A stretch of DNA of 64,000 nucleotides from an uncultured Bacteroidales bacterium. Lineage in GTDB: Bacteria > Bacteroidota > Bacteroidia > Bacteroidales > UBA932. Every line of letters starts with the position of its first letter. Positions within the stretch are counted from its first letter, which is position 1. A program made the position numbers and the translations under genes. Location: assembly GCA_900318445.1 (NCBI GenBank), contig ONKO01000001.1, forward strand, positions 124,001-188,000. The letters are read 5' to 3'. Of this stretch, positions 1 through 29,362 are shown piece after piece. Below the pieces are notes generated by a model, which saw only the letters and a program-made list of their open reading frames with translations, made no database searches and was not told where the DNA came from.

Positions 1-1
1 A

Positions 2-793
2 GGCGTCAAGACCTTCTCCAGCGTAAGCCTCCTCTACGGCCGGGCCAGCCAGGGTTTTGACGTGAAGGTTGTCTCCGACACCCTGAAGCCCGCACCCGTG
101 AAGACCGTGGGCGAAGGCGGAGCCACCTTACTCACCTGGACGTTCCCGCGGCCGGTAGAGAAAGCAACCCTCCGTATCTCCGGCAGCGCCGAGATTTATG
201 CTGTCGGGGCCGATGGCAGTTCCGGCGTGGCTGTGGACAACATCCCGCTGAGAGGCTGCTCGGGCACCATTTTCCACCGCATCTCCAAGCCGCTGATGAC
301 AGACTGCTTTGCCCTTACGGACACGCGCCTGATCATCCTTCAGTTTGGCGGCAACTATATGCCCGTAGCCCGTAACACAAAGGTCATCGAGCAGTATCAG
401 GAGCAGATTGCCCGCGAAATCCAGTATTTCCACGAGGTGGCTCCCCAGGCGAAAATCCTGTTCATCGGCCCGTCCGACATGGGAAAGAGCGTGAACGGCC
501 GCATCGTCACCTGGCCCAACCTGCCCACGCTGGTAGACTCCCTGCGGTCTACGGCCCTTTCGAACGATGCCGCCTACTGGGACCTCTTCCGCATGATGGG
601 AGGAGAGAATTCCATGGTTCAGTGGGTCAAGCACCGTCCTGCCTATGCCGGGCCGGACTACATCCACTTTACCTCGGAGGGCGCCAGGAAGGTGGGAGAT
701 GCGCTCAGCCAGTCCATTCTCACCTGCTACAATTTCTATGAGCTCAGAAAAACCTATCCCGCAAGAAAGGTGGAGGAGGCCATGCATCCATGA
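2..793 (+). CDS. SGNH/GDSL-family hydrolase, 5' end cut by window
   Basis: The frame is open from base 2, so the N-terminus and the first SGNH block lie outside the window; the GTG at 62 is only an internal codon. The visible part has a beta-rich stretch with the sequence VDNIPLRGCSGT, then a block-III-like LQFGGN, the sequence LFIGPSDM, and the block-V Asp-x-x-His in DYIHFTSEGA near the C-terminus. These are hallmarks of the SGNH hydrolases that Bacteroidota encode beside MBOAT acyltransferases. The stop overlaps the next start by 4 bp (ATGA), so the two genes are translationally coupled. Inference: a periplasmic esterase or acyltransferase acting on a surface glycan. The substrate cannot be read from the sequence. 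Confidence 0.8.
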   Translation, partial: GVKTFSSVSLLYGRASQGFDVKVVSDTLKPAPVKTVGEGGATLLTWTFPRPVEKATLRISGSAEIYAVGADGSSGVAVDNIPLRGCSGTIFHRISKPLMTDCFALTDTRLIILQFGGNYMPVARNTKVIEQYQEQIAREIQYFHEVAPQAKILFIGPSDMGKSVNGRIVTWPNLPTLVDSLRSTALSNDAAYWDLFRMMGGENSMVQWVKHRPAYAGPDYIHFTSEGARKVGDALSQSILTCYNFYELRKTYPARKVEEAMHP

Positions 794-1971
794 AAAAGCG
801 GCTTCTCCTTTGCCTTATAACCCTTCTTGCGCTGGTTCCCGCCGGGGCCCGCGTGCCGCATTATCCGTTTGTGAGAGGAGACCTCAACACCCTGGAAATG
901 CCCGCCGGAGCATCCCCTACCTATAACCGTTTCCTGCGCAAGCTGGACACGCTCATCGCAACGGGAGGAGTAGACGTGCGCGTCCTGCATGTGGGCGGAT
1001 CGCACGTCCAGGGCGGCACCTGGAGCGACCGTCTTCGCCGTAACTTCCTGAGCCTCAGGTATGGGGCCGATGGCGGCCGCGGCCTGGTCTTCCCCTTTTC
1101 GGCCGCCGGCACCAACACCCCCTCGAGCTACAGCAGTTCCTATGCCGGCAACTGGGAGGGCGTCAACTGCCTCAAGCCCCACGATGTCACGCTGGGACTC
1201 ACCGGCATGGCCGTGACGGCCCGGGATACATCGGCCCGGGTAGTGATAGACCTTCTGCCCCGCGAAGCACATCTCCTGCAGCAGCGCTACACCTTCAACC
1301 GGGTGGACGTGCTGGGAGAAGGCACGCTGGAACCCGTCCTGCTTCTGGGCAAAAAAGATACTTTAAGAGGCGTCAAAGGCCATTTCGTGCTCCCCTTCTA
1401 TACCGACTGGGTACAACTGGGCTTTGAAGGGAAAGGCTACTACACCCTTCGCGGCCTGTACCTGGACAAGCCGGGCCAGGGCTTCAGCCTCATGGAAGCG
1501 GGCGTGAACGGCGCTTCCACCACCGCCTGGCTCCGCTGCGAGCTGTGGGAGCAGGACCTCCGGCGCGTGATGCCAGACCTTGTCATCTTCTCCATCGGCA
1601 TCAACGATATTCAGGGGGCCGATTTTGACGTGCACCGCTTCAAGGAGCACTACCGGGAACTCATCAAGGCCGTGCGCCGCGTAAACCCCTACTGCGCCAT
1701 CCTCTTCAGCGGCATCAACGACAGCTGGCGCCGCCGGGACGTGAACAGCCACACGGAGGCGGCAGAGAAAGCCTTCCGGGAACTGGCCAAAGAGTGCGCC
1801 GGGGTGTTCTGGGACTGGTACAAGGTCATGGGAGGCTATGGCTCCATGGCCCGCTGGCAGGAAGCCGGCCTGGCCCAGGCAGACAAGGTACACTTTACTC
1901 CGGCCGGCTATAAACTGGTGGCAGACCTTCTGTTTGACGCTATCATCGACAGTTATCACAAACGCAGATGA
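790..1971 (+). CDS. Exported SGNH/GDSL-family hydrolase or acyltransferase
   Basis: 393 aa with an N-terminal signal peptide (hydrophobic core LLLCLITLLALVPAGA). Block I reads HVGGSHVQ near residue 70: the serine is kept but the usual Asp of GDS is Gly. Block III is SIGINDIQG (GxND) and block V is DKVHFTPAGY (Asp-x-x-His), so the catalytic Ser-Asp-His set looks complete. A middle segment with GVNGASTTAWL is typical of the type found in pairs with MBOAT proteins. Start ATG overlaps the previous stop by 4 bp and its own stop overlaps the MBOAT start by 4 bp. Inference: it works in the periplasm with the MBOAT partner, transferring or removing acyl groups on a polysaccharide. Confidence 0.82.
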   Translation: MKKRLLLCLITLLALVPAGARVPHYPFVRGDLNTLEMPAGASPTYNRFLRKLDTLIATGGVDVRVLHVGGSHVQGGTWSDRLRRNFLSLRYGADGGRGLVFPFSAAGTNTPSSYSSSYAGNWEGVNCLKPHDVTLGLTGMAVTARDTSARVVIDLLPREAHLLQQRYTFNRVDVLGEGTLEPVLLLGKKDTLRGVKGHFVLPFYTDWVQLGFEGKGYYTLRGLYLDKPGQGFSLMEAGVNGASTTAWLRCELWEQDLRRVMPDLVIFSIGINDIQGADFDVHRFKEHYRELIKAVRRVNPYCAILFSGINDSWRRRDVNSHTEAAEKAFRELAKECAGVFWDWYKVMGGYGSMARWQEAGLAQADKVHFTPAGYKLVADLLFDAIIDSYHKRR

Positions 1972-3806
1972 GCATGTGGGATGTCATACGGGATTTCCTT
2001 GTGAACCTGTTCTCCTTTGACCAGGCTCACCCGCTGCTCTTTACCCAGTTCTACTTCTGGGCATTCTTTGCACTGGTGTTCGCCGTGTTCTCGCTGTTCC
2101 ACAGCAAGGCACTCCTCAGAAACGGCTACCTGTTTGCGTGCTCGCTCTTTTTCTACTACAAGACCAGCGGCGTATTCCTCGCGCTCCTTGTCTTTGTCAT
2201 TGTCTATAACTTCTTCGCAGCCAAAGGCTTAGGGAAACTGAAGAGCAATAAGGCGCGGAGCGTTCTCACCGCCGTAAGCGTTGTCGTGGACCTGGGCATC
2301 CTGGCCTACTTCAAATACGCCTACTTCCTCACGGACTTTGTGAACAGCCTCCTGGGCACGTCCTTCGAGGTCCATGACGTCCTGGGTGAACTTCTCAACT
2401 CCCTCACCGGGGCCGATATCTTCCGGGTAGACGCCATCATCCTGCCGGTTGGCATCTCCTTCTTCACCTTCCAGGCCGTGAGCTACATGGTAGACGTGAA
2501 GCGGGAAAAAATTGCGCCCGTGGAGAACTTCCTGGACTTTGGCTTCTACCTGAGTTTCTTCCCCCAGCTGGTTGCCGGCCCCATCGTGCGGGCCGTGGAG
2601 TTTGTTCAGCAGCTTCACAAGCCCTATAACCTGAGCCGCCGCTGGTTTGGCATTGCCATCTTCTGGATCATGAACGGTCTTCTGAAAAAGCTCATCCTGG
2701 CCGACTACCTGGCCGTGAACTTCGCAGACCGCGTCTTTGAGAATCCCCTCCTGTACAGCGGCTTCGAGAACCTGAGCGCCCTGTTCTGCTATTCCCTGCA
2801 GGTATATGCCGATTTCTCCGGCTACACGGACATCGCAACGGGCGTCGCCATGCTCTTCGGCTTCTACCTGCCCCAGAACTTCAATTCTCCCTACAAGGCG
2901 GTGAATACGCAGCAGTTCTGGCGCCGCTGGCACATGACCCTGAGCCGCTGGCTGCGGGACTACCTGTACATCCCCCTCGGCGGAAACCGGAATGCATCGG
3001 CCGGCACCTATATCATCATTGCGGCGGTGGCTGTGTTCGGTTCCTTCCTCAGCGGCAGCTGGTGGGTAGCCTTCGGCGTAGCGCTTCTGGCGGCGGGCAT
3101 CGGCCTATGGGCCTGGAAAAAGCCCGGAGACCGCAAGCTCATCACCACCAACATCAACAGCATGAACACCATGCTCCTCGGCGGTCTGTGGCACGGTGCC
3201 AGCTGGAATTTCATGATCTGGGGCGGCCTCAATGGCATTGGCATGGTCATCTATAAGATCTGGACCAAGCGTTCCCTGGGCGGGAAGCTGCTGATCATCG
3301 GCCTCACCACGGCCCTTTGCGGCACGCTGTCCTTCACGCTGCATTACCCGGTGTGGAACATGTTCTTCGTATGGACGCTCATCATCCTTGTGGGAACGCT
3401 GGTGGAGTGGATCTTCAAAATCAAGAAAACGACGGCCTGGGACATCTTCCAGACCTTCGTTTTCATCACCTTCACGCGCCTTTTCTTCCGCAGCGGTTCC
3501 AACCTGGACCCTGCCCTGGCCAACGAAGAAGCCTGGAACACGGCCAAGAACATGGTGAACCAGATTGGCGGGCCCTGGGACCTGAACCTCATCCCCGACA
3601 TGGCCGCCGCTCACTGGACGGTGCTGCTGCTGTTTGTGGCGGGAATGATCATCCACTGGCTGCCGGAGCGCTTCAAGCGCTGGTACCGGCTCAATTTTGC
3701 CCTTATGCCGCTGGGTGTCATGGCCGTAGTGGTGGTGCTCATCATTGTCTTTATCTACCAGTTCATCACGGCAGACCTCCAGAGCTTTATCTACTTCCAG
3801 TTCTAG
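1968..3806 (+). CDS. MBOAT family membrane O-acyltransferase (AlgI/DltB/PatA-like)
   Basis: 612 aa polytopic membrane protein. It shows the family signatures in order: FFPQLVAGPIVR around residue 200, the QFWRRWHMTLSRWLRDYLY block, PLGGNR, and the catalytic-histidine motif GGLWHGASWNF. Members move acyl groups (usually acetyl) across the membrane to a periplasmic acceptor or partner SGNH protein. It is the third gene of an ATGA-coupled run with two SGNH proteins, the arrangement expected for an O-acetylation machine. The acceptor (alginate-like polymer, peptidoglycan, other glycan) is unknown. Its TAG stop shares the palindrome CTAG with the stop of the convergent rsmA. Confidence 0.9.
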   Translation: MSMWDVIRDFLVNLFSFDQAHPLLFTQFYFWAFFALVFAVFSLFHSKALLRNGYLFACSLFFYYKTSGVFLALLVFVIVYNFFAAKGLGKLKSNKARSVLTAVSVVVDLGILAYFKYAYFLTDFVNSLLGTSFEVHDVLGELLNSLTGADIFRVDAIILPVGISFFTFQAVSYMVDVKREKIAPVENFLDFGFYLSFFPQLVAGPIVRAVEFVQQLHKPYNLSRRWFGIAIFWIMNGLLKKLILADYLAVNFADRVFENPLLYSGFENLSALFCYSLQVYADFSGYTDIATGVAMLFGFYLPQNFNSPYKAVNTQQFWRRWHMTLSRWLRDYLYIPLGGNRNASAGTYIIIAAVAVFGSFLSGSWWVAFGVALLAAGIGLWAWKKPGDRKLITTNINSMNTMLLGGLWHGASWNFMIWGGLNGIGMVIYKIWTKRSLGGKLLIIGLTTALCGTLSFTLHYPVWNMFFVWTLIILVGTLVEWIFKIKKTTAWDIFQTFVFITFTRLFFRSGSNLDPALANEEAWNTAKNMVNQIGGPWDLNLIPDMAAAHWTVLLLFVAGMIIHWLPERFKRWYRLNFALMPLGVMAVVVVLIIVFIYQFITADLQSFIYFQF

Positions 3807-4573
3807 GCCAGCAAATTGGTGAGCGCCACAAAGTCCTCCACGGAGAGCTGCTCCGGGCGCTGGGAGAAGATGTCCTCAGAGAGAACATCGGCCTTGCCGC
3901 GAGCGATGGCAAGGGGCTTCAGGGGATTGCGCATCATCTTGCGGCGCTGCCCGAAGGCCGTTTTCACAACGGTCTTGAAGAGGGCTTCGTCGCAGCCCAG
4001 TTCCGTGCGGGTGTTGCGCGTGAGGCGAATGACGGCGCTTTCCACCTTGGGCGGCGGGGCAAAACAGCCAGACCCCACGGTAAAGAGGTACTCGATGTCG
4101 TACCAGGCCTGCAGAAGGACGCTCAGGATGCCGTAGGTCTTGCTGCCGGGTTTTTCGGCTATTCGCTCGGCCACTTCCTTCTGCACCATGCCCACTACCT
4201 CGGGGATGTTGTCCTTGTAGTCCAGCACCTTGAAGAAGATCTGGGAAGAGATATTGTAGGGGAAATTGCCGATGATGGCGAACTTTTCCGGGAAAAGCTT
4301 TTCCAGCTTAAGTTTGAGGAAGTCCCCTTCCATGAGGCGTCCCTGCATACCCTGGAAGTGGGTGAGAAGGTACTCCACACTCTCCGAGTCGATCTCGATA
4401 AGCCTGAGGTCAATGTCTTCCCGCTCCAGCAGGTACTGGGTAAGAACGCCCATGCCGGGACCCACTTCCAGGGTGGGAAGGCCGCCGTGAAGGGCGTCAA
4501 CAATGGCGCGGGCCACCTTCTGGTCCGTGAGGAAATGCTGCCCGAGGGCTTTCTTTGCGCGTACTTCTGTCAT
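3803..4573 (-). CDS. rsmA: 16S rRNA (adenine1518/1519-N6)-dimethyltransferase RsmA (KsgA)
   Basis: 256 aa starting [15 protein letters not shown], the conserved KsgA/RsmA N-terminus, then the SAM-binding [10 protein letters not shown] and the adenine-binding motif NFPYNIS. It dimethylates two adjacent adenines in helix 45 of 16S rRNA during 30S maturation. An open frame continues upstream, but the start at 4573 gives the family N-terminus and lies 5 nt after a TACCTTTG -7 box, so the mRNA is probably leaderless or nearly so. It is divergent from aspS and convergent with the MBOAT gene, overlapping it by 4 bp at the stops. Confidence 0.96.
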
Positions 4574-4578
4574 ACTTG

Positions 4579-4586
4579 CAAAGGTA
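4579..4586 (-). promoter_or_regulatory. Bacteroidota -7 box for rsmA
   Basis: TACCTTTG on the minus strand fits TAnnTTTG and ends 5 nt before the rsmA ATG, implying almost no 5' leader. Confidence 0.65.
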
Positions 4587-4621
4587 AAGGAAAAATACGT
4601 AAAAACCTCGCGAGAAATTGC

Positions 4622-4629
4622 TATCTTTG
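4622..4629 (+). promoter_or_regulatory. Bacteroidota -7 box for the aspS operon
   Basis: TATCTTTG fits TAnnTTTG and lies 29 nt before the aspS ATG at 4659. It is divergent from the rsmA box about 40 bp away. It is the likely promoter for aspS, murB, murA and the following lysine/DAP genes. Confidence 0.6.
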
Positions 4630-4658
4630 TAGGTTGGAAAGTAAATGTAAACCTACAT

Positions 4659-6431
4659 ATGTACAGAACACACACTTGCGGAGAACTCCGCATTGAGAAC
4701 AAAGGCCAGAAGGTAACGCTGGCAGGATGGGTGCAGAAGGCCCGCAAACTGGGCGGCATGACATTCATCGACCTGCGTGACCGCTATGGCATCACCCAGC
4801 TGGTGGTAGAGGCCGATGCCCCCGCCGCCCTGGTGGAGACCGCCACCTCCCTGGGCCGTGAATACGTGATCCAGGCAACCGGCGAAGTGGTGGAACGCAG
4901 CGCCAAGAACGCCAAGATGCCCACCGGAGACATCGAAATCAAACTGGAAGCCATCACCATCCTCAACAAGAGCGTAACGCCTCCCTTCACCATCGAGGAA
5001 GAGAGCGACGGCGGTGAAGACCTCCGTGCCAAATACCGCTACCTGGACCTTCGCCGCGGCCCGCTCCAGCGCGCCCTGGCCCTGCGCCACAAGGTAGCCC
5101 ACGAAGCCCGCAACTACCTCGACAGCCTGGGCTTCATGGAAATCGAGACCCCTTACCTCATCAAGTCCACCCCGGAAGGTGCCCGTGACTTTGTGGTTCC
5201 TTCCCGCATGAACCCCGGCCAGTTCTACGCCCTGCCGCAGAGCCCCCAGACCTTCAAGCAGCTCCTGATGGTAGCCGGCTACGACCGCTACTTCCAGATT
5301 GTGCGCTGCTTCCGTGACGAGGACCTCCGCGCAGACCGCCAGCCGGAATTCACCCAGATTGACTGCGAAATGTCGTTCGTGGAACAGGAAGACGTTCTCA
5401 ATACCTTCGAAGGGATGATGCGCACCCTGTTCAAGAACGTTCTCAATGTAGATATCCCCAACCCGCTTCCCCGCATGAGCTGGTACGACGCCATGGACTT
5501 CTATGGCTCCGACAAGCCCGACGTGCGCTTTGGCATGAAGATCCACGAGATCACCGAGGTTGCCAAGGGCAAGGGCTTCAGCGTGCTGGACGAGGCCGCT
5601 TACATCGGCGCCATCTGCGTTCCCGGTGCCTCCGAGTACACCCGCAAGCAGATTGACGAGCTCACCGAGTGGGTCAAACGCCCGCAGGTGGGTGCCAAGG
5701 GCCTCATCTACATCAAGGTCAACGCCGACGGAACCTACAAGAGCTCCATCGACAAGTTCTACACGGCCGAAGACCTCCAGAAGATTGCCGCCACCGCCGA
5801 GGCTCAGCCCGGAGACCTCATCCTCGTGATGAGCGGCGCCGCCAAGCGCAAGGTCCAGACCATGCTGGGCGTCCTGCGTCTGGAGATGGGCGGCCGTCTG
5901 GGCCTTCGCAACCCCAAGGAGTTCGCTCCCCTGTGGATTGTGGACTTCCCGCTGCTGGAGTGGGACGACGAAACCCAGCGTTTCTACGCTATGCACCACC
6001 CCTTCACCGCTCCCAAGCCGGAGCACGAGAAATGGTTCTACTCCGACAAGAAGGAAGATCTGGAGCGCGTCTGCGCCAACGCCTACGACTTCGTGCTCAA
6101 CGGCAACGAGCTGGGCGGCGGCTCCATCCGTATCCACAACGCCGACATGCAGAAGCGCATGTTCGAGGTGCTGGGCATCGGCCCTGAAGAAGCCGAGTAC
6201 AAGTTTGGCTTCATCATCAACGCCTTCAAGTTCGGTGCTCCGCCGCACGGAGGTCTGGCCTTCGGATTTGACCGCGTTTGCGCCCTCATGGGCGGCCAGG
6301 ACACCATCCGCGACTACATTGCGTTCCCCAAGAACAACCAGGGCCGCGACGTCATGATCGATTCCCCGTCCCAGATTGACCAGGAACAGCTGGATGAACT
6401 TCAGATAGCCCTGAACATAAAGCAAATGTGA
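4659..6431 (+). CDS. aspS: Aspartyl-tRNA synthetase
   Basis: 590 aa class II synthetase of bacterial type. The N-terminal OB anticodon-binding domain ([11 protein letters not shown]) is followed by [13 protein letters not shown], class II motif 2 ([18 protein letters not shown]), the bacterial GAD insertion at about residues 280-420, and motif 3 ([10 protein letters not shown]). It charges tRNA-Asp. The frame is open further upstream, but [11 protein letters not shown] at 4659 matches the family N-terminus and follows a promoter. The stop overlaps the murB GTG start by 4 bp, so this housekeeping gene heads a cell-wall/lysine gene cluster. Confidence 0.97.
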
Positions 6432-7462
6432 TCCGTCACTTATCATATGATTTGAGTGCGCGGAACACATTCGGTATGAAAGTGTCCTGCGCACTTTATT
6501 TAGAGGTGGAGTCTGAACAGGAACTGCACACGCTGGACTGGGACGCCCTGCCCGGGCCCGTCATGGTCCTGGGTGGCGGAAGCAACCTTCTTTTCACGAA
6601 GGATTTTCCCGGAACGGTGCTGCACATCGCCCTCCGCCACTGCGAGCGAAGCGAAGAATTCTGGACCCTCGGCGCCGGCGTCGTCTTTGACGATTTCTGC
6701 GCCCAGGCGGCGGCAGAAGGCCTCTGGGGCCCGGAGAATCTCTCGCTCATCCCGGGGGAATGCGGCGCATCGGCCGTCCAGAATATCGGCGCCTACGGCG
6801 TGGAGGTCAAAGACATCCTGGCCGATATCCGGGCCTACGACCGGGCAGAAGGCCGATTCGTCCACATCGACCCCGCCACCTGCGGCTACGGCTACCGCAC
6901 CTCCAAGTTCAAGACCGAGTGGAAAGGCCGATACATCATTACCGCCGTCACTTACCGCCTCTCCAGGGAGCCCAGGCCCGTCCTGGACTACGGCGGCATC
7001 CGCAAAGCACTGGAGAATAGATCCTTCGGCCTTCGGCCTCAGGATGACAATAATTGTCATTCTGAGCAAAGCGAAGAATCTCTTACCCCGCAGGTGATCC
7101 GCGACACCATCATCGGCATCCGGAGAGAGAAACTCCCGGACCCGGCGGTGACGGGAAGCGCCGGAAGTTTTTTCTGCAACCCGGTGGTCTCTGAGGAAGT
7201 CTTCCGCCGCATCGAGGGCAATCCGCCGCACTACGAGGTAGCAGGCGGCATCAAAATCCCGGCCGCGTGGCTCATCGAGCAGTGCGGCTTCAAGGGCGTC
7301 CGCCTGGGCGGCGCGCAGGTGTACCCGCGGCAGCCGCTGGTGATTGTCAATGCGACGGGAAAGGCCTCGCCGCAGGAGATCATCGGCCTGGAAAAGCAGG
7401 TAATCGATGCCGTCCGGGAAAAGTACGGAATAACCCTTCATCCAGAAGTAGAGCATGTCTAA
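6428..7462 (+). CDS. murB: UDP-N-acetylenolpyruvoylglucosamine reductase MurB with repeat-derived insertions
   Basis: 344 aa. It reduces UDP-GlcNAc-enolpyruvate to UDP-MurNAc with NADPH and FAD. FAD-binding VLGGGSNLL (residues 47-55) and PENLSLIPG are present. The catalytic set looks intact: Arg157 in YGYR, Ser247 in GSAGSFF, Glu340 in HPEVE. The GTG start overlaps aspS by 4 bp (GTGA) and the end overlaps murA by 8 bp. Oddity: residues 198-220 ([20 protein letters not shown]...) are the translation of a palindromic dispersed repeat, and residues 71-77 (HCERSEE) look like a second related repeat. Both sit between conserved blocks, so the enzyme is probably still active. Confidence 0.95.
6638..6662 (+). 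repeat. Degenerate CATTCTGAGCGAAGCGAAG-type repeat inside murB
   Basis: The sequence CACTGCGAGCGAAGCGAAGA and its next bases share a GAGCGAAGCGAAGAAT core with the two other copies in this window. It is read in frame as HCERSEE in a normally variable strand of MurB. From memory, CATTGCGAGCGAAGCG-type repeats are common in bacterial genomes; here the match is partial. Confidence 0.55.
7019..7081 (+). repeat. 63-bp palindromic dispersed repeat inserted in frame in murB
   Basis: The left arm begins AGATCCTTCGGCCTTCGG at 7019 and ends in AGGATGACA at 7049. A 5-nt loop ATAAT follows. The right arm, 7055-7081, begins TGTCATTCTGAGC and ends GAAGAATCT. The arms pair imperfectly (AGAT...ATGACA with TGTCAT...ATCT). 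The right arm differs from the copy at 9178-9204 by one base. All of it is read through as MurB residues 198-218. Confidence 0.8.
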
Positions 7463-8762
7463 ATATATCATCGAAGGAGGGCATAAGCTCTCCGGTACCA
7501 TAACCCCACAGGGCGCAAAAAACGAAGCCCTGGAGGTCATAAGCGCGGTGCTTCTCACCAGCGAACCCGTCACCATCAGTAACGTCCCGGAAATCCTGGA
7601 TGTCAAGAACCTCATTGCGCTGTTGCAAAACATGGGCGTAAAAGTGACGCGCCACGCAAAGGGAACTTACACCTTCCAGGCCGATGCCGTAGATACGTCC
7701 TACATCGAGACGCAGGAATTCATTGACAAATGCGCCGAGCTCCGCGGCTCGGTGATGATCGTGGGCCCGCTCCTTACCCGCTTCGGGCATGCGTGGTTCG
7801 CCAAGCCCGGCGGCGACAAGATTGGCCGGCGCAGGGTGGACACCCACCTGGACGGCATGATGAAGCTGGGGGCCGACATACAGTACGACGCCTCTCGGCA
7901 TGCTTTCCGCCTCACCTCCAAGGACCGCCTTACGGGCCGATACATGCTCCTGGACGAGGCTTCCGTCACCGGCACGGCCAACATCCTCATGGCGGCGGTA
8001 CTGGCCAAGGGAACCACTACCATCTACAACGCGGCCTGCGAGCCCTATATCCAGCAGCTGTGCAAGATGCTGGGCCGCATGGGCGCCTTCATCGACGGAG
8101 TGGGCAGCAACCTCCTCCGCATTCACGGTGTAGAGGCCCTGCACGGCACGCAGCACAAGATTCTCCCGGATATGATCGAGGTGGGCTCGTTCATCGGCAT
8201 GGCCGCCATTTGCCGCAGTTCCATTACCATCAAGGACGTATCCTGGTACGACCTGGGCATCATTCCCGATGCCTTTCGCCGCCTGGGCATCAAGCTGGAG
8301 CAGCGGGGAGACGACATCTTCATCCCCGAGCAGGACAGCTACGAGATAGAATCCTTCCTGGACGGCTCCATCATGACCCTCGCCGATGCCCCCTGGCCCG
8401 GCCTCACGCCCGACCTCCTGTCGGTAATGCTGGTGGTGGCCACCCAGTGCAAGGGAAGTGTCCTCATCCACCAGAAGATGTTCGAGAGCCGCCTGTTCTT
8501 TGTGGACCGGCTCATCGACATGGGCGCCCAGATTATCCTGTGCGACCCGCACCGCGCGGTGGTCATCGGCCACGACCATCGCATCAACCTCAGACCTGCC
8601 CGGCTGGTGTCCCCCGACATCCGTGCCGGCATTGCCATGCTGCTCGCCGCCATGAGCGCCAGCGGCACCTCCACCATTGACAACATCCAGCAGATTGACC
8701 GCGGCTACGAGGACATCGAAGGCCGCCTCAACGCGCTGGGAGCCCATATTACCCGTGCTTAA
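7455..8762 (+). CDS. murA: UDP-N-acetylglucosamine 1-carboxyvinyltransferase MurA, Asp-type
   Basis: 435 aa EPT/RTPC-like enzyme that transfers enolpyruvate from PEP to UDP-GlcNAc, the first committed peptidoglycan step. GAKNEALE near residue 20 and GGDKIGRRRVDTHL near residue 120 align with the family. Where E. coli has the catalytic Cys115 this protein has Asp121 (PGGDKIG). Cys-to-Asp at this site is known to confer fosfomycin resistance, so intrinsic resistance is predicted. Start overlaps murB by 8 bp; 1 bp separates its stop from the next gene. Together murB and murA provide UDP-MurNAc beside the DAP genes. Confidence 0.94.
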   Translation: MSKYIIEGGHKLSGTITPQGAKNEALEVISAVLLTSEPVTISNVPEILDVKNLIALLQNMGVKVTRHAKGTYTFQADAVDTSYIETQEFIDKCAELRGSVMIVGPLLTRFGHAWFAKPGGDKIGRRRVDTHLDGMMKLGADIQYDASRHAFRLTSKDRLTGRYMLLDEASVTGTANILMAAVLAKGTTTIYNAACEPYIQQLCKMLGRMGAFIDGVGSNLLRIHGVEALHGTQHKILPDMIEVGSFIGMAAICRSSITIKDVSWYDLGIIPDAFRRLGIKLEQRGDDIFIPEQDSYEIESFLDGSIMTLADAPWPGLTPDLLSVMLVVATQCKGSVLIHQKMFESRLFFVDRLIDMGAQIILCDPHRAVVIGHDHRINLRPARLVSPDIRAGIAMLLAAMSASGTSTIDNIQQIDRGYEDIEGRLNALGAHITRA

Positions 8763-8763
8763 C

Positions 8764-10692
8764 ATGGACTACAACAGATTTTTCTCGGCCGATGTGCCTT
8801 CATTCCTACGCTCTCCGGTAAGGGAGATTTTCCGGAAGGTAGACCTCAGTGCCATCTGCTCCTTCGCCGGAGGATACCCCGCCGCCGACACTTTCCCGGT
8901 GACCGAAATCCCCGGCCTTGCCGCCGCCGTGCTGGAAAAGTATGGCACCAAGGCGCTGCAGTACGGTGCAACGCAGGGCGTGCCAGAACTGCGCGAAGCC
9001 ATTGCCGCCCGCTACGGCGTGCCCGTGTCGCAGGTACAGATCACCACTTCTTCCCAGCAGGGCATCGACGTGTGCACCCGCGTCTTCGTGGACCCCGGAG
9101 ACGTGGTCCTGGCCGATAACCCGGTGTATCTGGGGGCACTGCAGAGTTTCAGGGCCTACCGCGCCAAGGTAATGGGATGTCATTCTGAGCGAAGCGAAGA
9201 ATCTGAAGTCAAATTCATCTACGTCATCCCCGACTTCAACAACCCCTCCGGCAAAACCATGACCCTGGAGGAACGGAAAGAGCTGGTGCGGCTTGCCCGG
9301 GAACTTGACTGCCTCATTGTAGAAGACAGCCCCTACCGCGAGCTTCGCTATGAGGGGGAGCCGGTCACGCCCATCCGAGAACTGGCCCCGGAGCGCACGC
9401 TGCAGCTGGGAAGCTTCTCCAAGATCTTTGCTCCGGGCTTCCGGCTGGGATGGATCATCGGCCCGGAAGAACTCCTGGAGCAGATTTACGTTTGCAAGCA
9501 GTGCCTGGACCTGTGTCCGCCGGTTTTTGACCAGTACTTGGCCGCAGAATTCCTCACCAGCGGTGCGCTGGACCGCAACTTACAGAAAACCTTAGCATTA
9601 TACAGGCACCGGAGAGACTTGATGGTGTCCCTGCTGGAGAAATACATGCCGGCCGGAGTGAGCTGGACCTACCCGGAAGGGGGCCTTTTCCTGTGGCTAA
9701 CCCTGCCGGAGAGCATTGATACCGTGGCGCTGTATGACCGTGCACTGGCATCCGGCGTGGCCTACGTAGCGGGCTCGTTCTTCTACACCGACGGCAGCCA
9801 CCGCAACACCATGCGCCTGAACTTCTCCTTCATAGACGAAGCCAAGATGGAACCTGGCATCAAGCTCCTCTCAAGCGTGATGAACAACATCCACATCACG
9901 CTATACAAGTTCACCGGGGCAGGCAATGACTTTGTCTTGCTGGACGGGCGCCAGGGAGGGGTGGACGATTTCCGCCAAAAGGAGACCATCGCCAGACTGT
10001 GCCGGGAATACCGCACCGACGGCATGATGATCCTGGATCAGGCACCCGGCTACGACTTTGCCATGGAATTCTACAACCCCGACGGAAGCGGCGGCATGAT
10101 GTGCGGCAATGGTGGCCGATGCATCGTGGCCTTTGCCGATTACCTGGGCCTGAAGCCCGCCTCGCCGGACGGAGTATGGAACTTCCTGGCACCGGACGGC
10201 CCGCATACAGCCGAGATCCTCCAGAAAGAGGACGGCCTGTGGACCGTTAAGCTCAAGATGATTGACGTAGACGGAGTAAAGCCCGTCCTGGACGGCTACT
10301 TCCTCAACACCGGCACCCGTCATTTTGTGAAGTTCGTGCCCAGTGTCGAAGCCCTGGACATGGAAAAAGACGGCCCGGAATACAGATGGGCCGATGCCTT
10401 CCAGCCCGAAGGCACCAATGCCAATTTTGTGGAGGCAGCGCCCGACGGCCTGCATGTCCGCACCTTTGAAAAGGGTGTGGAAGGCGAAACCCTGGCCTGC
10501 GGAACCGGCCTCACGGCCAGCGCCATCGCGGCCTATGCCGCCGGCGTCATTCCCGGCCGGGCCGGGGATCCCATCCGCCTCCAGTGCCGCCGCGGCGACT
10601 GGCTGGAGGTTAGTTTCAAGGCCGCCGGAGAACACTTCACCGACGTGTTCCTCACCGGCCCGGCCGAATGGATTGAAAACAAAGCACACTAG
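8764..10692 (+). CDS. dapF: Fusion: PLP aminotransferase (probable DapC role) + diaminopimelate epimerase DapF
   Basis: 642 aa in one uninterrupted frame. Residues 1-372 are a fold-type I PLP aminotransferase of the LysN/MocR-catalytic type (AGGYPAADTFP, ALQYGATQG, PDFNNPSGK, PLP Lys220 in SFSKIFAPGFRLGW). Residues 373-642 are a complete DapF (FTGAGNDF) with both catalytic cysteines, Cys447 in MMCGNGG and Cys579 in LACGTG. Internal ATG codon 373 could also start DapF alone. DapC is the only step of the succinylase pathway with no separate gene here, so the aminotransferase domain probably makes N-succinyl-LL-DAP. Oddity: repeat-derived CHSERSEES (139-147) replaces the roughly 25-30 residue segment usually found before the NPSG motif. 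Confidence 0.88.
   Translation: MDYNRFFSADVPSFLRSPVREIFRKVDLSAICSFAGGYPAADTFPVTEIPGLAAAVLEKYGTKALQYGATQGVPELREAIAARYGVPVSQVQITTSSQQGIDVCTRVFVDPGDVVLADNPVYLGALQSFRAYRAKVMGCHSERSEESEVKFIYVIPDFNNPSGKTMTLEERKELVRLARELDCLIVEDSPYRELRYEGEPVTPIRELAPERTLQLGSFSKIFAPGFRLGWIIGPEELLEQIYVCKQCLDLCPPVFDQYLAAEFLTSGALDRNLQKTLALYRHRRDLMVSLLEKYMPAGVSWTYPEGGLFLWLTLPESIDTVALYDRALASGVAYVAGSFFYTDGSHRNTMRLNFSFIDEAKMEPGIKLLSSVMNNIHITLYKFTGAGNDFVLLDGRQGGVDDFRQKETIARLCREYRTDGMMILDQAPGYDFAMEFYNPDGSGGMMCGNGGRCIVAFADYLGLKPASPDGVWNFLAPDGPHTAEILQKEDGLWTVKLKMIDVDGVKPVLDGYFLNTGTRHFVKFVPSVEALDMEKDGPEYRWADAFQPEGTNANFVEAAPDGLHVRTFEKGVEGETLACGTGLTASAIAAYAAGVIPGRAGDPIRLQCRRGDWLEVSFKAAGEHFTDVFLTGPAEWIENKAH
9178..9204 (+). repeat. 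Half-copy of the palindromic repeat inside the aminotransferase domain
   Basis: This 27-nt copy begins TGTCATTCTGAGCGAAGCG and ends GAAGAATCT. It differs from the right arm of the murB repeat by one base. It is read in frame as CHSERSEES. The paired left arm is absent. Confidence 0.75.
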
Positions 10693-10694
10693 AT

Positions 10695-11564
10695 ATGGAC
10701 AAAATATTCAAAGGATGCGGCACGGCACTGCTTACTCCCTTCAAGGGAGGCGAAGTAGATTATACGGCGTTTGCCGCCACAGTGGACTGGCAGGTGACGG
10801 CCGGCATGGATTTCCTGGTGCCGCTGGGAACCACCGGCGAAACGCCCACGCTCACGGAATCGGAAAAACTCCAGGTGCTGGAGGTAGCCCTGCAACATGC
10901 CGCCGGAAAACCGGTGGTGGCCGGTGTGGGTACCAACAGCGTAACCGGCACGCTGGCCAACATGCGCCTGCTGCAGGATGCCGACGCCTACCTGATTGTG
11001 GCACCGTTCTACAACAAGCCGCCGCAGCGGGGTATCTACGAATACTTCAAGGAGCTGGCCCAGAGCACGGACAAGCCCATCGTCCTGTACAATGTGCCCG
11101 GCCGTACGGGCTGCAACATTGAGGCGGAAACCACCCTGGCCCTGGCACGGGACATCCCCAACATCGTAGGTGTCAAGGAAGCGTCCGGCAACATCGGCCA
11201 GATTCAGGCCATCCTGGACGGCCGTCCGGATGGGTTCTCGGTGCTCAGCGGCAACGACGACCAGACCTTCGAGCTCATGCAGAAGGGGGCCGATGGTGTC
11301 ATCTCCGTAGCTTCCAACGTGTTCCCCAGCGCCATGGCAGACTTTGTACATGCACTGCAGGCGGGCAAGTTCGAAGAGGCAAAAAAGATGGACGACCGCC
11401 TGAATCCCCTGTTCAAGGCGCTCTTCGTGGAGCCCAATCCCATCCCCGCCAAGGCCGCCATGGCCCAGCTGGGACTCATGGAAAACAGCCTGCGCCTGCC
11501 GCTGGTGCCCGCCACAGAAGCCACCGAGACGCTCCTGAAGCAAACCCTTAAAGAATTGTTTTAA
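10695..11564 (+). CDS. dapA: 4-hydroxy-tetrahydrodipicolinate synthase
   Basis: 289 aa TIM-barrel aldolase condensing pyruvate with aspartate semialdehyde. The Schiff-base Lys161 is in VGVKEASG, the proton-relay Tyr132 in VLYNVPGRTG, and GTTGETPTL holds the conserved Thr-Thr. It starts 2 bp after the dapF fusion and its TAA shares one base with the dapD start (TAATG), so it is co-translated with both. Confidence 0.97.
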   Translation: MDKIFKGCGTALLTPFKGGEVDYTAFAATVDWQVTAGMDFLVPLGTTGETPTLTESEKLQVLEVALQHAAGKPVVAGVGTNSVTGTLANMRLLQDADAYLIVAPFYNKPPQRGIYEYFKELAQSTDKPIVLYNVPGRTGCNIEAETTLALARDIPNIVGVKEASGNIGQIQAILDGRPDGFSVLSGNDDQTFELMQKGADGVISVASNVFPSAMADFVHALQAGKFEEAKKMDDRLNPLFKALFVEPNPIPAKAAMAQLGLMENSLRLPLVPATEATETLLKQTLKELF

Positions 11565-12340
11565 TGGAAATTACAATACAAGAGTTTAACGAAGTCATAG
11601 AAGCCCTGGAAAAGGGAGAACTCCGCGTTGCCCGGAAGGCAGACGGCGTATGGCAGGTAAACAAGCACGTGAAGGAAGTAATTCTTGCCGGCTTCAGGCT
11701 GGGCGCCATCACAGACATGAGTGAAGGTCAGTTTCCCTTCTTTGACAAGGATACTTACCCTGTGAGGAAGTTCAGCGCAGAGGACGGCGTCCGCATCGTC
11801 CCCGGCGGGTCCAGCATCCGGCGCGGTGCTTTCGTAGCCAAAGGCGCCATTGTCATGCCCCCTTCCTATATCAACGTAGGAGCCTATGTAGGCGAAGGTA
11901 CCATGGTGGACAGCCATGTCACCGTGGGGTCCTGCGCGCAAATCGGCAAAAACATTCATCTGTCGGCCTGTGCCCAGATTGGCGGCGTGCTGGAGCCGGC
12001 GGGCGCCCTTCCCACCATCATTGAAGATGGCGCATTCGTGGGCGGCAACTGCGGCATCTATGAGGGAACCATTGTGGAAGAAGGCGCCGTCATTGCTTCG
12101 GGCGTTGTCATCACCGCCTCTACACCGCTGTTCGATGCCACCACGGGCAGTTTCGTACCCCGTAACGCCGACGGCCGCGTGGTCGTTCCCCGCGGAGCCG
12201 TGGTGGTGAGTGGTTCCAAGCCCATCGTGCGGGACGGAAAACCCCTCGAAAGCGGCGTACATCTATACTGCCCCGTCATCGTCAAATACCGCGACGAAAA
12301 AACCGCCGGCAGTGTTCATCTCGAAGATTTATTAAGGTAA
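11564..12340 (+). CDS. dapD: 2,3,4,5-tetrahydropyridine-2,6-dicarboxylate N-succinyltransferase
   Basis: 258 aa with a left-handed beta-helix of hexapeptide repeats (PPSYINVGAYVGEGTMVDSH onward) and the DapD signatures GGVLEPAGALPTIIED and GGNCGIYEG. It uses succinyl-CoA to open and acylate tetrahydrodipicolinate. Its presence marks the succinylase branch. This is notable because Bacteroides are known to use the one-step DapL route. The C-terminal part binds CoA in characterised members. Confidence 0.95.
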   Translation: MEITIQEFNEVIEALEKGELRVARKADGVWQVNKHVKEVILAGFRLGAITDMSEGQFPFFDKDTYPVRKFSAEDGVRIVPGGSSIRRGAFVAKGAIVMPPSYINVGAYVGEGTMVDSHVTVGSCAQIGKNIHLSACAQIGGVLEPAGALPTIIEDGAFVGGNCGIYEGTIVEEGAVIASGVVITASTPLFDATTGSFVPRNADGRVVVPRGAVVVSGSKPIVRDGKPLESGVHLYCPVIVKYRDEKTAGSVHLEDLLR

Positions 12341-12346
12341 TATAAA

Positions 12347-13336
12347 ATGAAAGTTGCAGTAGTGGGAGCCACTGGCCTCGTAGGCTCCAAAATGTTAGAA
12401 GTACTTCAGGAAAGGAATTTTCCTGTAACCGAACTGTTACCAGTCGCCTCCGAACGCTCCTGGGGTAAAAAGGTAACCTTCCAGGGAAAGGAATGGACCG
12501 TGATGAGTGCCGATGAGGCCATTGCGAAGAAACCGGCCCTGGCACTGTTCAGCGCCGGCGGCGCCGCTTCCGGCGAGCTGGCCCCCAAATTCGCCGCCGT
12601 GGGTTGCTACGTGGTAGACAACTCCTCCTTCTGGCGCATGGATCCTTCTGTGCCGCTGGTCGTTCCGGAAATCAATGCCGATGTCCTCACCCCCGGGGAC
12701 CACATCATCGCCAACCCCAACTGTTCCACCATCCAGATGGTGCTGCCCCTGGCCCCGCTTCACAAGGCCTACGGCATCAAGCGCATTGTGGTGAGCACTT
12801 ACCAGAGCGTTACCGGCGCTGGCCAACGCGGTATTGAGCAGCTAGAGGCCGAGCGTGCCGGCGGCAGCGGCAGCAAGTTCCCCCACCCCATCGACCTCAA
12901 CATCCTTCCCCATATTGACAGCTTCCTCCCCGACGGTTACACTAAGGAAGAGATGAAGATGGTGAACGAAACCCGCAAGATCCTGCGTGACGACACCATC
13001 GCCGTGTGCCCTACCACCGTGCGTGTACCGGTCAAGGGCGGCCACTCCGAGAGCGTGAACCTGGAATTCTGCAAGCCCTTCGACCTGGACGAGGCCCGTA
13101 AACTGATGGCCGACATGCCCGGTGTAGTGCTGCAGGACGACCCCGAAAACAACGTCTATCCCATGCCGCTTAACGCCTGGGGCAAGGACGAGGTGTTCGT
13201 GGGCCGCATCCGCCGCGACTTCTCCGTAGAGAACGGCCTCAACATCTGGTGCGTGAGCGACAACCTGCGCAAGGGTGCCGCCACCAATGCCGTCCAGATT
13301 GCCCAGGTGCTGCTCGCCAAAGGCTGGCTTCAGTAG
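12347..13336 (+). CDS. asd: Aspartate-semialdehyde dehydrogenase
   Basis: 329 aa. N-terminal Rossmann GATGLVGSKM, catalytic Cys126 in NPNCSTIQM, then VSTYQSVTGAGQRG. It reduces aspartyl phosphate to the semialdehyde that feeds dapA and, through homoserine dehydrogenase, threonine and methionine. It starts 6 bp after dapD and its stop is 1 bp before dapE. Confidence 0.96.
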   Translation: MKVAVVGATGLVGSKMLEVLQERNFPVTELLPVASERSWGKKVTFQGKEWTVMSADEAIAKKPALALFSAGGAASGELAPKFAAVGCYVVDNSSFWRMDPSVPLVVPEINADVLTPGDHIIANPNCSTIQMVLPLAPLHKAYGIKRIVVSTYQSVTGAGQRGIEQLEAERAGGSGSKFPHPIDLNILPHIDSFLPDGYTKEEMKMVNETRKILRDDTIAVCPTTVRVPVKGGHSESVNLEFCKPFDLDEARKLMADMPGVVLQDDPENNVYPMPLNAWGKDEVFVGRIRRDFSVENGLNIWCVSDNLRKGAATNAVQIAQVLLAKGWLQ

Positions 13337-13337
13337 T

Positions 13338-14318
13338 ATGAACTGGCACTTCTTTCAAGACCTTTTGAGCATCGATTCCACTTCCGGCAAGGAGCGGGAA
13401 GTGGCACTGTGGCTGCATGACACGTTGGAAGCTCCGCAGAAAAAACTCATGGAAGTGGGAGACGGCACCCTCAACCTCCTTCTGTCATGGGGCACGCCCA
13501 AAGTGGTGTTCTGCTCCCACATGGACACCGTTCCGCCTTACATTCCCCCCACCTTTGAAGAGGGCGTGGTGAAGGGACGCGGCTCCTGCGACGCCAAGGG
13601 CCAGATCTTCGCCATGTACTCGGCCTGCAAGGAGTTGGAAGCAGAAGGGCGCACAGACTTTGGCCTCCTTTTGGTCTCCGGGGAAGAAACCGGTTCCTGG
13701 GGCGCCAAGGCCTTTTCCAAGACCGGCTTCGAAGCCCCCTTCCTCATTGTGGGAGAGCCCACGGAGAACAAGATGGTATCGGCCTCCAAAGGTACTCTCT
13801 CCTACGACCTCTGCTTCACAGGGAAGGCGTTCCACTCCGGCTATCCGCAGTATGGCGTGAGCGCCGTGGACCTTTTCAACGCGTTCTACAACCAGCTCAA
13901 GGCACAGGACTTCGGCGAGGACCCGGAACTGGGAGAGACCACCTTCAACATCGGCCTTCTCCATAGCGACAATCCGCAGAATATCTTATCGGCCCAGCTT
14001 ACCTGCCGGCTCTACTTCCGCACCACGTTCGTCTCGCATGAGGCGGTGCAGCGCTGGATGTCGGCCATCCCCGAAGCGTCCCTGCGCGCCCCGGGGGACA
14101 CACCCGCGCACTACGTGACGCTGCCCGGGTTTCCATCGGCCCCGGTGGCCTTCGGCAGCGACGCCCCGCACCTCACCGGTTTCGGCCACAAGATCATCTG
14201 CGGGCCCGGCACCATCCGCGTAGCCCATCGGCCCGAAGAACACATCCTGGTCCGGGACCTGGAAACCGCCGTGGAACAATACATCGCGCTTTTTCACAAC
14301 CTACTCAGTGACAGCTAG
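13338..14318 (+). CDS. dapE: M20-family deacylase, probable succinyl-DAP desuccinylase
   Basis: 326 aa di-zinc M20 peptidase. Metal ligands and catalytic residues are visible: HMDTVP, GRGSCDAKGQ, GEETGSWG, VGEPTENK, and a C-terminal His in RVAHRPEEH. ATG 13338 gives the normal N-terminus and lies 1 bp after asd; a longer frame runs into asd and is rejected. Length is short for DapE (about 375 aa). By sequence alone it could also be an ArgE-type acetyl- or succinyl-ornithine deacylase. Its place between asd and dapB, with dapD upstream, favours DapE. Confidence 0.8.
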   Translation: MNWHFFQDLLSIDSTSGKEREVALWLHDTLEAPQKKLMEVGDGTLNLLLSWGTPKVVFCSHMDTVPPYIPPTFEEGVVKGRGSCDAKGQIFAMYSACKELEAEGRTDFGLLLVSGEETGSWGAKAFSKTGFEAPFLIVGEPTENKMVSASKGTLSYDLCFTGKAFHSGYPQYGVSAVDLFNAFYNQLKAQDFGEDPELGETTFNIGLLHSDNPQNILSAQLTCRLYFRTTFVSHEAVQRWMSAIPEASLRAPGDTPAHYVTLPGFPSAPVAFGSDAPHLTGFGHKIICGPGTIRVAHRPEEHILVRDLETAVEQYIALFHNLLSDS

Positions 14319-14323
14319 TTAAC

Positions 14324-14359
14324 TTTTTCTCTTTAGGCCGATCAGCCTAAAGAGAAAAA
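14324..14359. terminator. Bidirectional hairpin terminator between dapE and dapB
   Basis: Perfect 15-bp inverted repeat, TTTTTCTCTTTAGGC at 14324-14338 and its complement at 14345-14359, with a 6-nt loop. The arms end in T5/A5, so either strand gives a U-tailed hairpin. It separates the aspS-to-dapE run from dapB and the lysC fusion, and may act as an attenuator or a partial terminator. Confidence 0.65.
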
Positions 14360-14396
14360 CACAAGTACTTAACACACAGCAAATTACAAAGATTCG

Positions 14397-24658: not shown

Positions 24659-24663
24659 TTTGC

Positions 24664-24770
24664 GTGGCGCTTAAGCGCCTGACTAGCAACGCTTTAGAGT
24701 AACTGACGGGTGCCGTTTTGGCACCCGTCAGTTACTCTAAATGGCTTATGGTGAACGACTTAGCCGCCAC
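24664..24770 (+). mobile_element. 107-bp palindromic MITE/REP-like element, copy 1
   Basis: It begins GTGGCG and ends CGCCAC. The centre is a perfect 22-bp inverted repeat (TTTAGAGTAACTGACGGG... at 24693-24714, complement at 24720-24741) with a 5-nt loop GTTTT. The left end also holds the 14-bp palindrome GGCGCTTAAGCGCC. The copy at 28587-28693 is the same element in inverted orientation, differing at 8 of 107 positions. It has no coding capacity and no T-run, so it is not a classic terminator. Confidence 0.8.
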
Positions 24771-24807
24771 GAATAAACATTTTTGCCCAGATTCGGAGAA
24801 GAATTCG

Positions 24808-28574: not shown

Positions 28575-28586
28575 GGCAGTTTGACC

Positions 28587-28693
28587 GTGGCGCCTAAGTC
28601 GTTCATTATAAGCCATTTAGAGTAACTGACGGGTACCGAAATGGCACCCGTCAGTTACTCTAAAGTGTTGCTAATCAGGCGCTTAAGCGCCAC
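28587..28693 (-). mobile_element. 107-bp palindromic MITE/REP-like element, copy 2 (inverted)
   Basis: Same length, same GTGGCG/CGCCAC ends and same central hairpin (28616-28637 with 28643-28664, one mispair, loop GAAAT) as copy 1, but in opposite orientation. It starts 12 bp after the dnaE stop and ends 9 bp before the convergent DUF4923 gene. Confidence 0.8.
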
Positions 28694-28702
28694 GCAGCAC
28701 AG

Positions 28703-29362
28703 CTATTTGCTCAGCTTGAAGCCCACCTTGAAGTTGTCATAACCATCGGCGAGCTTGGCGATGGCGCCGACGGAGCTGGAGGACTGGCCAATCTTGGCAG
28801 CGACCTTCTTGAGGAGGGCGACGGTCTTGTTGGCAGGGAAGAGCATCTTGGCACCGGTGAGACCGGATTCCAGGACGCCCGTCATGCAGAAGTACTGCAT
28901 GGTCTTGCCGAAGGTGAGAGTAACGGTCTTTTCAGCGTCTCCCACCTTGTAGGTGCCGGACAGAGGAATGGAGCCCACGTTCATGACAAAGGTGTTGTCG
29001 GCCGAGTTGAAGGTGAACTTCACGACGCCGGGAACGATACCCACCTTGGCCAGGTATTCATCGGCCTTGGTCTCGATACCGGAAGTGACGGCGGAGCCGG
29101 CCAGGTTGGCCACGATGCCACCCTCGGAGCTGGTAGCCGATACGGCGATACCATTGTAGTTATACATTCCGTTCAGGCTCACGGGTGCGGAATAAACCGT
29201 GCCGGCCAGTCCGGAAACCACGTTGGTGATAGCCGATACAGTGGAAGCGGCCTTGGAAGACTGGCCGCCCTGATTGCTGAAGAGAACCTCCATGAGGCTC
29301 TGAGCCGAGACTGCGCCGGAGAAAGCGACAGTCATTGCAAGAACAGTAAATAATTTCTTCAT
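28703..29362 (-). CDS. DUF4923 (lipocalin-like) exported protein
   Basis: 219 aa. A signal peptide (LFTVLAMTVAFSGAVSAQ) precedes a low-complexity Ser/Val/Ala stretch and a beta-rich body (VKFTFNSADNTFVMNVGSIP, LSGTYKVGDAEKTVTLTFG), which resembles the DUF4923 lipocalin-like family of Bacteroidales. Function unknown, probably periplasmic or outer-membrane associated. It lies 26 bp downstream of the ThiL-like gene on the same strand and may be cotranscribed. The end faces the inverted 107-bp element. Confidence 0.75.
   Translation of the reverse strand: MKKLFTVLAMTVAFSGAVSAQSLMEVLFSNQGGQSSKAASTVSAITNVVSGLAGTVYSAPVSLNGMYNYNGIAVSATSSEGGIVANLAGSAVTSGIETKADEYLAKVGIVPGVVKFTFNSADNTFVMNVGSIPLSGTYKVGDAEKTVTLTFGKTMQYFCMTGVLESGLTGAKMLFPANKTVALLKKVAAKIGQSSSSVGAIAKLADGYDNFKVGFKLSK

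Follow-up and report, generated by a model that had tools for sequence, protein, structure and literature searches.

Two facing REP-like hairpin units, very probably inserted in frame in murB of an uncultured Bacteroidales bacterium, belong to a dispersed repeat that recurs in protein loops

The stretch of DNA analysed here (64,000 nucleotides, hereafter the window) contains a murB ORF on the plus strand at positions 6428..7462, 344 codons long with a GTG start, which matches Pfam FAD_binding_4 and MurB_C as well as E. coli MurB (1mbb_A, E 9e-60). Positions 7019-7081 of this ORF hold a 63-bp insert made of two inverted, TGTC-tagged palindromic units of 31 and 27 bp: the left unit TGTCATCCTGAGGCCGAAGGCCGAAGGATCT (7019..7049, minus strand), an inverted variant whose inner stem, at 4 bp, is longer, and the right unit TGTCATTCTGAGCAAAGCGAAGAATCT (7055..7081, plus strand), which encodes CHSEQSEES and is one base off the 27-bp consensus TGTCATTCTGAGCGAAGCGAAGAATCT, the two facing tags being separated by the 5-bp spacer ATAAT (7050..7054). 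An earlier note, made from the sequence alone, had described an imperfect palindromic hairpin here, and the 63-mer indeed folds better than 200 of 200 shuffles, with z-scores for the two strands of -3.8 and -4.2 as DNA and -4.9 and -4.9 as RNA; an inverted-repeat search of the window returned no inverted pair at 7019-7081, because the arms are imperfect. The insert keeps the murB frame and, by ORF translation, is predicted to add 21 residues at 198-218, CHSEQSEES included as the note had it, but not over its longer span of 198-220. MurB is intact on both sides: the two Pfam matches flank the insert, one on each side, and R157, S247 and E340, which we take to be the catalytic residues of MurB, occupy columns of the MurB alignment that are invariant or nearly so. 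The AlphaFold model places both MurB loops discussed below in coil, a weak hint given a poor model with a mean pLDDT of 51. Two related sequences lie nearby on the plus strand, a decayed REP-like unit in loop A of MurB (6635..6661, RHCERSEEF; 15% mismatch against the nearest consensus tried) and a consensus 27-bp unit, read in frame as CHSERSEES, at 9178..9204 in the aminotransferase half of ORF 8677-10692, the next-but-one gene after murB. With up to 3 mismatches, the 24-nt core has 2 matches in the window against 0.00 expected from 100 shuffles. ORF 8677-10692 (671 codons) itself joins an aminotransferase and a DAP epimerase without a stop, an arrangement also present in the sister genome G028 (L114:2809-4752).

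Across copies the unit follows the hairpin consensus ATTCT-GA-GC-GNA-GC-GA-AGAAT, with a stem of 5 + 2 bp, a double GA/GA mismatch and a 3-nt GNA loop; d(GCGAAGC)-like mini-hairpins are very stable in DNA. The hairpin of the TGTC element is maintained by compensatory double changes. The search patterns fixed most element bases, and covariation could be counted only at the positions left free, one of them limited to C/T, where among 96 distinct copies the first pair is Watson-Crick in 95/96 (81 T-A, 13 C-G, 1 G-C, 1 mismatch; 14 double changes), the second pair in 94/96 (78 G-C, 16 A-T, 2 G-T; 16 double changes), and the free loop base is A in 67, C in 16, T in 9 and G in 4. A single 27-mer folds no better than its shuffles (tagged strand, z -0.1 as DNA and -0.5 as RNA), so the single-unit hairpin rests on the covariation, and folding energy was rejected as its proof. 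Regarding the borders, the first tag base is T in 97/97 copies, the pattern having fixed the GTC of the tag and the G and A of the GNA loop, and the base before the tag is a pyrimidine in 91/97 (C44, T47, A5, G1). The last base of the unit is T in 95 and C in 2 copies, and the closing CT is followed by A (50/97) and T (57/97). More than two bases away from the unit the flanks have no common sequence, and across these many unrelated surroundings the unit boundaries stay sharp. At one locus of the window genome (L001, ~1420-1530, minus strand), tandem half units TGTCATTCTGACATTCT lead up to a complete TGTC unit.

The repeat is dispersed, as the earlier note had supposed, with 20 core copies (up to 3 mismatches) in the own genome and none of a reversed control pattern. 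Within the genus, 32 of 61 genomes (own included) have a match, at 0-106 copies each and again with no match to the reversed pattern, and of 395 genomes sampled from the phylum 51 have the element, representing 32 of 171 genera, with up to 112 copies. The 21 relative loci matched by MurB come from Bacteroidales/Bacteroidia MAGs, the titles of which point to ruminant stomachs. The exact 27-mer is also found in 24 stretches of 23 IMG/VR viral contigs (L173-L196), which are possible carriers or misbinned host DNA.

Comparison with relatives shows the murB site with and without the insert. G028 aligns colinearly to window positions 1-7017 (88%) and 7082-13464 (81%) without the insert, has 4 bp where the window has 64 bp, and its MurB loop reads KALLEKTLTP versus a 29-residue stretch in the window genome, a net gain of 19 residues (57 bp) for a 63-bp insert. 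E. coli MurB likewise does without it, and L152 and L172, the nearest relatives on the MurB tree, have 7 residues in place of the window's 26 and carry no element in loop A or B. We therefore regard an in-frame insertion of a REP-like element into murB, as first proposed in the note, as very probable; most simply, it would have happened after the window species split from its sister, at a site where the variability of the loop makes the ancestral bases unreadable. Loop B is long in several relatives, as would be expected of an old MurB loop resembling the repeat by chance, but the short loops of L152 and L172, and DNA that differs from a dispersed repeat at a single position in 27, leave this reading with a negligible probability; it was rejected on the sister genomes and the repeat census, and a segment of the same length in all relatives, which the note had named as the sign of chance or age, is contradicted by the sister genomes. 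An assembly or binning artefact has to be considered for a MAG that is a draft of 32 contigs and 88% complete, yet it is very improbable for a short, in-frame insert between colinear unique flanks, the more so as the element in the L168 MurB ends at the same codon.

How the unit arrived is less clear-cut, since at murB and at four other sites compared with the sister the bases beside the unit have changed as well and there is no clean addition. For a 27-bp unit the net gain is +9 bp in the aminotransferase, +9 in dapF, +18 in the MBOAT gene and +19 at a gene boundary, and no target duplication was recognised at the five compared sites. Such net gains above or below the unit length at non-shared sites would fit replacement as well as insertion. 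The own dapF carries at window positions ~10545-10571 the sequence CGTCATTCCCGGCCGGGCCGGGGATCC, itself REP-like, at the place of a TGTC unit in G028. A serious rival can be built on these observations, in which existing repeats recombine, or the template is switched between them at replication forks, and loop segments are swapped for repeat-bearing ones without any transposition. It would account for the net changes that differ from the unit length, for the extra changed bases, for the different REP-like sequence in dapF, and for the failure to find a dedicated enzyme at 113 Y1 loci (see below), but it sits poorly with unit ends that stay sharp over unrelated flanks (T in 97/97, a preceding pyrimidine in 91/97), and overall we rate it as rather improbable.

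The same two loops of MurB have been altered repeatedly among relatives. We compared 49 MurB sequences (own plus 27 and 21 from two relative sets; L025, L026 and L030 as duplicates of the window, and also L152 and L163, were dropped beforehand), and at a threshold of ≤20% mismatch a CGTC/TGTC-type element lies in loop A (residues ~67-82; lacking in L052) of 11/49, own included, and in loop B (~195-221) of 3/49, namely own, L168 and L049, with borderline cases at 26-37% (L159 A, L162 A, L167 A, L036 B, L034 B) scored as negative. The alignment with relatives that the note had called for thus confines the element in loop B to three sequences. Mapped on a MurB tree built with the loop columns removed, the state changed at least 3 times in loop B and at least 8 times in loop A, on a quick tree with 21 of 46 inner branches open and long-branch warnings, in which gain and loss are not separable. 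Elsewhere among the relatives, these loops are occupied by different dispersed repeats and the quite distinct peptides they encode, or by no such peptide at all.

MurB is one of many host proteins. In the own genome, where 20 ORFs from 19 of the 20 loci were run against Pfam, 11 of 20 copies lie inside Pfam-supported genes, encoding an HI0933-like protein, riboflavin kinase/FAD synthetase, RmlD, MurB, an aminotransferase, DNA polymerase I, the citrate lyase ligase part and the CitG part of one ORF, an amidohydrolase (presumably hutI-like), a SpoU methylase and an NTP-transferase/HAD protein. In G028, 11 of 58 examined copies (of 68 counted) do so, in genes for a TilS-like protein, methionyl-tRNA synthetase, the citrate lyase ligase/CitG ORF (three copies), the amidohydrolase, riboflavin kinase, NTP-transferase/HAD, an MBOAT protein, DAP epimerase and an M20 peptidase; here the Pfam search took only the longest ORF across each copy (30 ORFs, for 32 of the 43 copies that had one, the 11 in short ORFs being left out), and a gene in another frame could have escaped it. 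The occurrence of the peptide in many unrelated proteins, which the note had put forward, is borne out by CHSERSEES insertions in unrelated Pfam families and by the spread over 32 of 171 phylum genera. By their flanking peptides, five positions are common to the two sister genomes, so that the 22 in-gene copies represent 17 distinct events; this count excludes copies whose ORF lacks any Pfam match (e.g. L006, L007, L241) and those at gene starts or ends (L001, L003, L014, L017, L019, L020, L238, L240). Fifteen of these events are read in the CHSERSEES frame, one as EILRxAQND and one as VILSEAKDL, a bias with p = 7e-8 under a null of one in four open frames. Some units also touch gene borders: they provide the stop codon of a tRNA-nucleotidyltransferase-like ORF (L001) and one at a G028 gene boundary (G028:C23:129-155), a possible GTG start of a formyl transferase (L014) and a possible ATG start of an integrase (L238).

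This bias, together with the repeated presence at the same MurB loops, could mean that CHSERSEES is positively selected, for instance as a metal, redox or interaction motif. Against such a function stand the unrelatedness of the host proteins, the finding that the corresponding loops of relatives hold unlike repeat-encoded peptides or no such peptide, and the plain fact that no other open frame is as hydrophilic as the favoured one (hydropathy -2.0, versus +0.7, +0.3 and -0.3 for the other three open frames). Copies common to both sisters, moreover, differ in amino acids (CHPEQSEES/CHSERSEES; CHSERHEES/CHSERSEES), residue changes as expected of filler, and a peptide function appears unlikely. 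The simplest reading of the frame bias would be survival of what a surface loop tolerates, and we consider it likely that the insertions survive by tolerance and not by function of the peptide, which would be mostly inert filler.

The TGTC unit shares these genomes with other repeats. One is structured, dispersed and some 100-120 nt long, with the core AGRGGGAGGGGCC..TGGGAGGGGYCG and a candidate pseudoknot CCCCC/GGGGG or CCCTC/GAGGG (L003 and L004 in the own genome, L059, L063, L118-L120, L156, L157, L160, L162, L164-L167, L170, L171, L197-L226). Its outer stem is copy-specific and yet self-complementary, with a median exact stem of 17 nt in 42 copies versus a median of 6 in 408 mismatched-flank controls, 8 of which reached 12 or more. 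Its 85 matches are spread over 22 of the 61 genus genomes (none for the reversed pattern), 11 of 50 murB loci carry it, and sequences from 10 sources gave no match to Rfam at gathering scores. The murB genes of L157 and L158, at 91.4% identity, are set apart by a clean insertion or deletion of 105 bp with GTGT at its borders; L159 was rejected as an empty site, a remnant of the repeat being kept there. Another is a second palindrome, GGCCGAAGGAATTT..AAATTCCTTCGGCCATCGCAA (noted at own L002, L004, L005, L011, L018 and at G028 C23, C24, C44, C49, C5, C15, C59, C63, C68, C56). It matches 14 sites in the own genome and 23 in G028; of the other 59 genomes, 4 gave one match each, at 2-3 mismatches, and 3 gave one match each to the reversed control. 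A TGTC unit is no more than 100 bp away in 5/14 own and 11/23 G028 cases, and the five own in-gene cases of the palindrome are read in one frame (..KNQIPSAIA..) within composite inserts of ~50 residues.

Looking for a RAYT-type transposase, as the note had suggested, we found four Y1-transposase-like genes in the own genome and no element within ~1.5 kb at any of the four. Across the genus, where 113 of 139 Y1 matches were scanned (303 kb), an element is present at 2 of 113 Y1 loci versus 2.3 expected from genome densities; no linkage was found, and a RAYT adjoining the element was rejected. A Y1 clade specific to high-copy genomes was rejected as well, as each of the two large clusters is also represented in genomes with no copy. 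The element is present in 30 of 46 genomes with Y1 and in 2 of 15 without (Fisher p 7e-4), with kinship and draft completeness uncontrolled, for which reason this co-occurrence is not used as proof. In the available part of Di Nocera et al. 2013 (PMC3733652), CGTC REPs are likewise without a transposase. The E. coli TnpA(REP), according to the accessible text, cuts at C|T on the 5' or the 3' side of the hairpin and depends on the stem mismatch (PMC8266576), and the units described here, with Y|T on the left, a C|T end and a double mismatch kept, favour a TnpA(REP)-like enzyme acting in trans as the leading but unproven candidate for the mover; a mover of the single-strand, Y1 type as such is plausible, at somewhat less than even chances. 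As separate observations, short stretches at window positions 14319-14360, 24661-24772 and 28577-28703 have several matches in the Y1 loci L021/L022 and elsewhere, and the 14-mers TTAGAGTAACTGAC (8x) and GGCGCAGGTTCCGG (6x) recur among the own loci and the window.

The reading that we prefer joins the directly supported features, i.e. dispersed repeat, presence and absence between sisters, compensatory pairing, open in-frame reading, repeated loop changes and frame bias: a tag-to-tag pair of short non-autonomous mobile hairpins would have landed between the FAD-binding and C-terminal domains of MurB, in a loop that is variable. Because the conserved features, the tagged hairpin, the double stem mismatch and the Y|T left and C|T right borders, are the anatomy read by TnpA(REP), we infer movement in the form of a folded single strand of DNA; a Y1/HUH enzyme whose gene adjoins none of the elements would carry it in trans. 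Landings would be more or less random, and a copy within a gene would survive only where the frame is kept, the loop is tolerant and the frame read is hydrophilic. Taken as a whole, from the pair moved folded in trans to its survival, this account seems probable to us. A broader proposal is tentative and rather doubtful, namely that in this genus several unrelated repeats, the TGTC hairpin, the composite palindrome and the pseudoknot-like repeat, regularly supply new in-frame protein loops by arriving repeatedly at identical sites in essential enzymes, borne as folded single-stranded DNA by an enzyme working in trans, and that the hydrophilic frame is a built-in safe peptide for a selfish element in essential genes. 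In-frame palindromes have mostly been described from Rickettsia and a few REP-rich genomes, and the gut lineage studied here makes the process countable, in repeated loop changes of one essential enzyme, in presence/absence pairs between sisters and in the frame bias. It also makes testable the mover of CGTC/TGTC REPs and the role of selfish repeats as raw material for protein loops, and repeat-encoded loops in MurB and other proteins can mislead annotation and phylogeny.

In a literature search that covered few subscription papers, no report of the CHSERSEES string or the TGTC hairpin element was found. As far as the available text of PMC3733652 goes, the element resembles the CGTC/TGTC REP superfamily, for which Bacteroidetes are among the phyla named, in its unpaired TGTC tag, a stem starting with AT, the size of 20-40 bp, face-to-face dimers, units within genes and the lack of a linked transposase. 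The superfamily, as described there, has a stem of 8-9 bp, a loop of 4-5 nt, a CCA-like tail and mostly HH dimers, whereas here the stem is 5 + 2 bp split by the conserved GA/GA mismatch, the loop is a 3-nt GNA, the end is CT(AT), although ATCC is common in other phylum members, and single units prevail (1 HH in 18 own, 3 in 62 in G028, no other inverted type); about half of the own copies lie in genes, again unlike the superfamily. Because stem, loop, tail and dimer use differ, the TGTC hairpin family, judged by sequence, would not be a strict member of the four CGTC families. With GTAG REPs/REPINs and their RAYT/TnpA(REP) it shares, in the parts of PMC8266576 and PMC6006769 at hand, a tagged single-stranded hairpin, a stem mismatch, inverted pairs and C|T borders, but the REPtron tag is GT[AG]G instead of TGTC, and a REPtron has its RAYT gene flanked by the repeat, versus no linkage in 113 Y1 loci here. 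Rickettsia palindromic elements (RPE) are, in the accessible portion of PMC10969869, likewise palindromes in frame in many unrelated protein genes, yet of ~150 bp compared with a unit of 27-31 bp and a pair of 63 bp in another phylum. Since in-gene REPs (PMC3733652) and RPEs (PMC10969869) are established in these sources, the type of event is not new; what goes beyond their descriptions, so far as these are available, and was less expected is the recurrence at identical loops of a single enzyme among members of a genus, together with the bias towards one reading frame.
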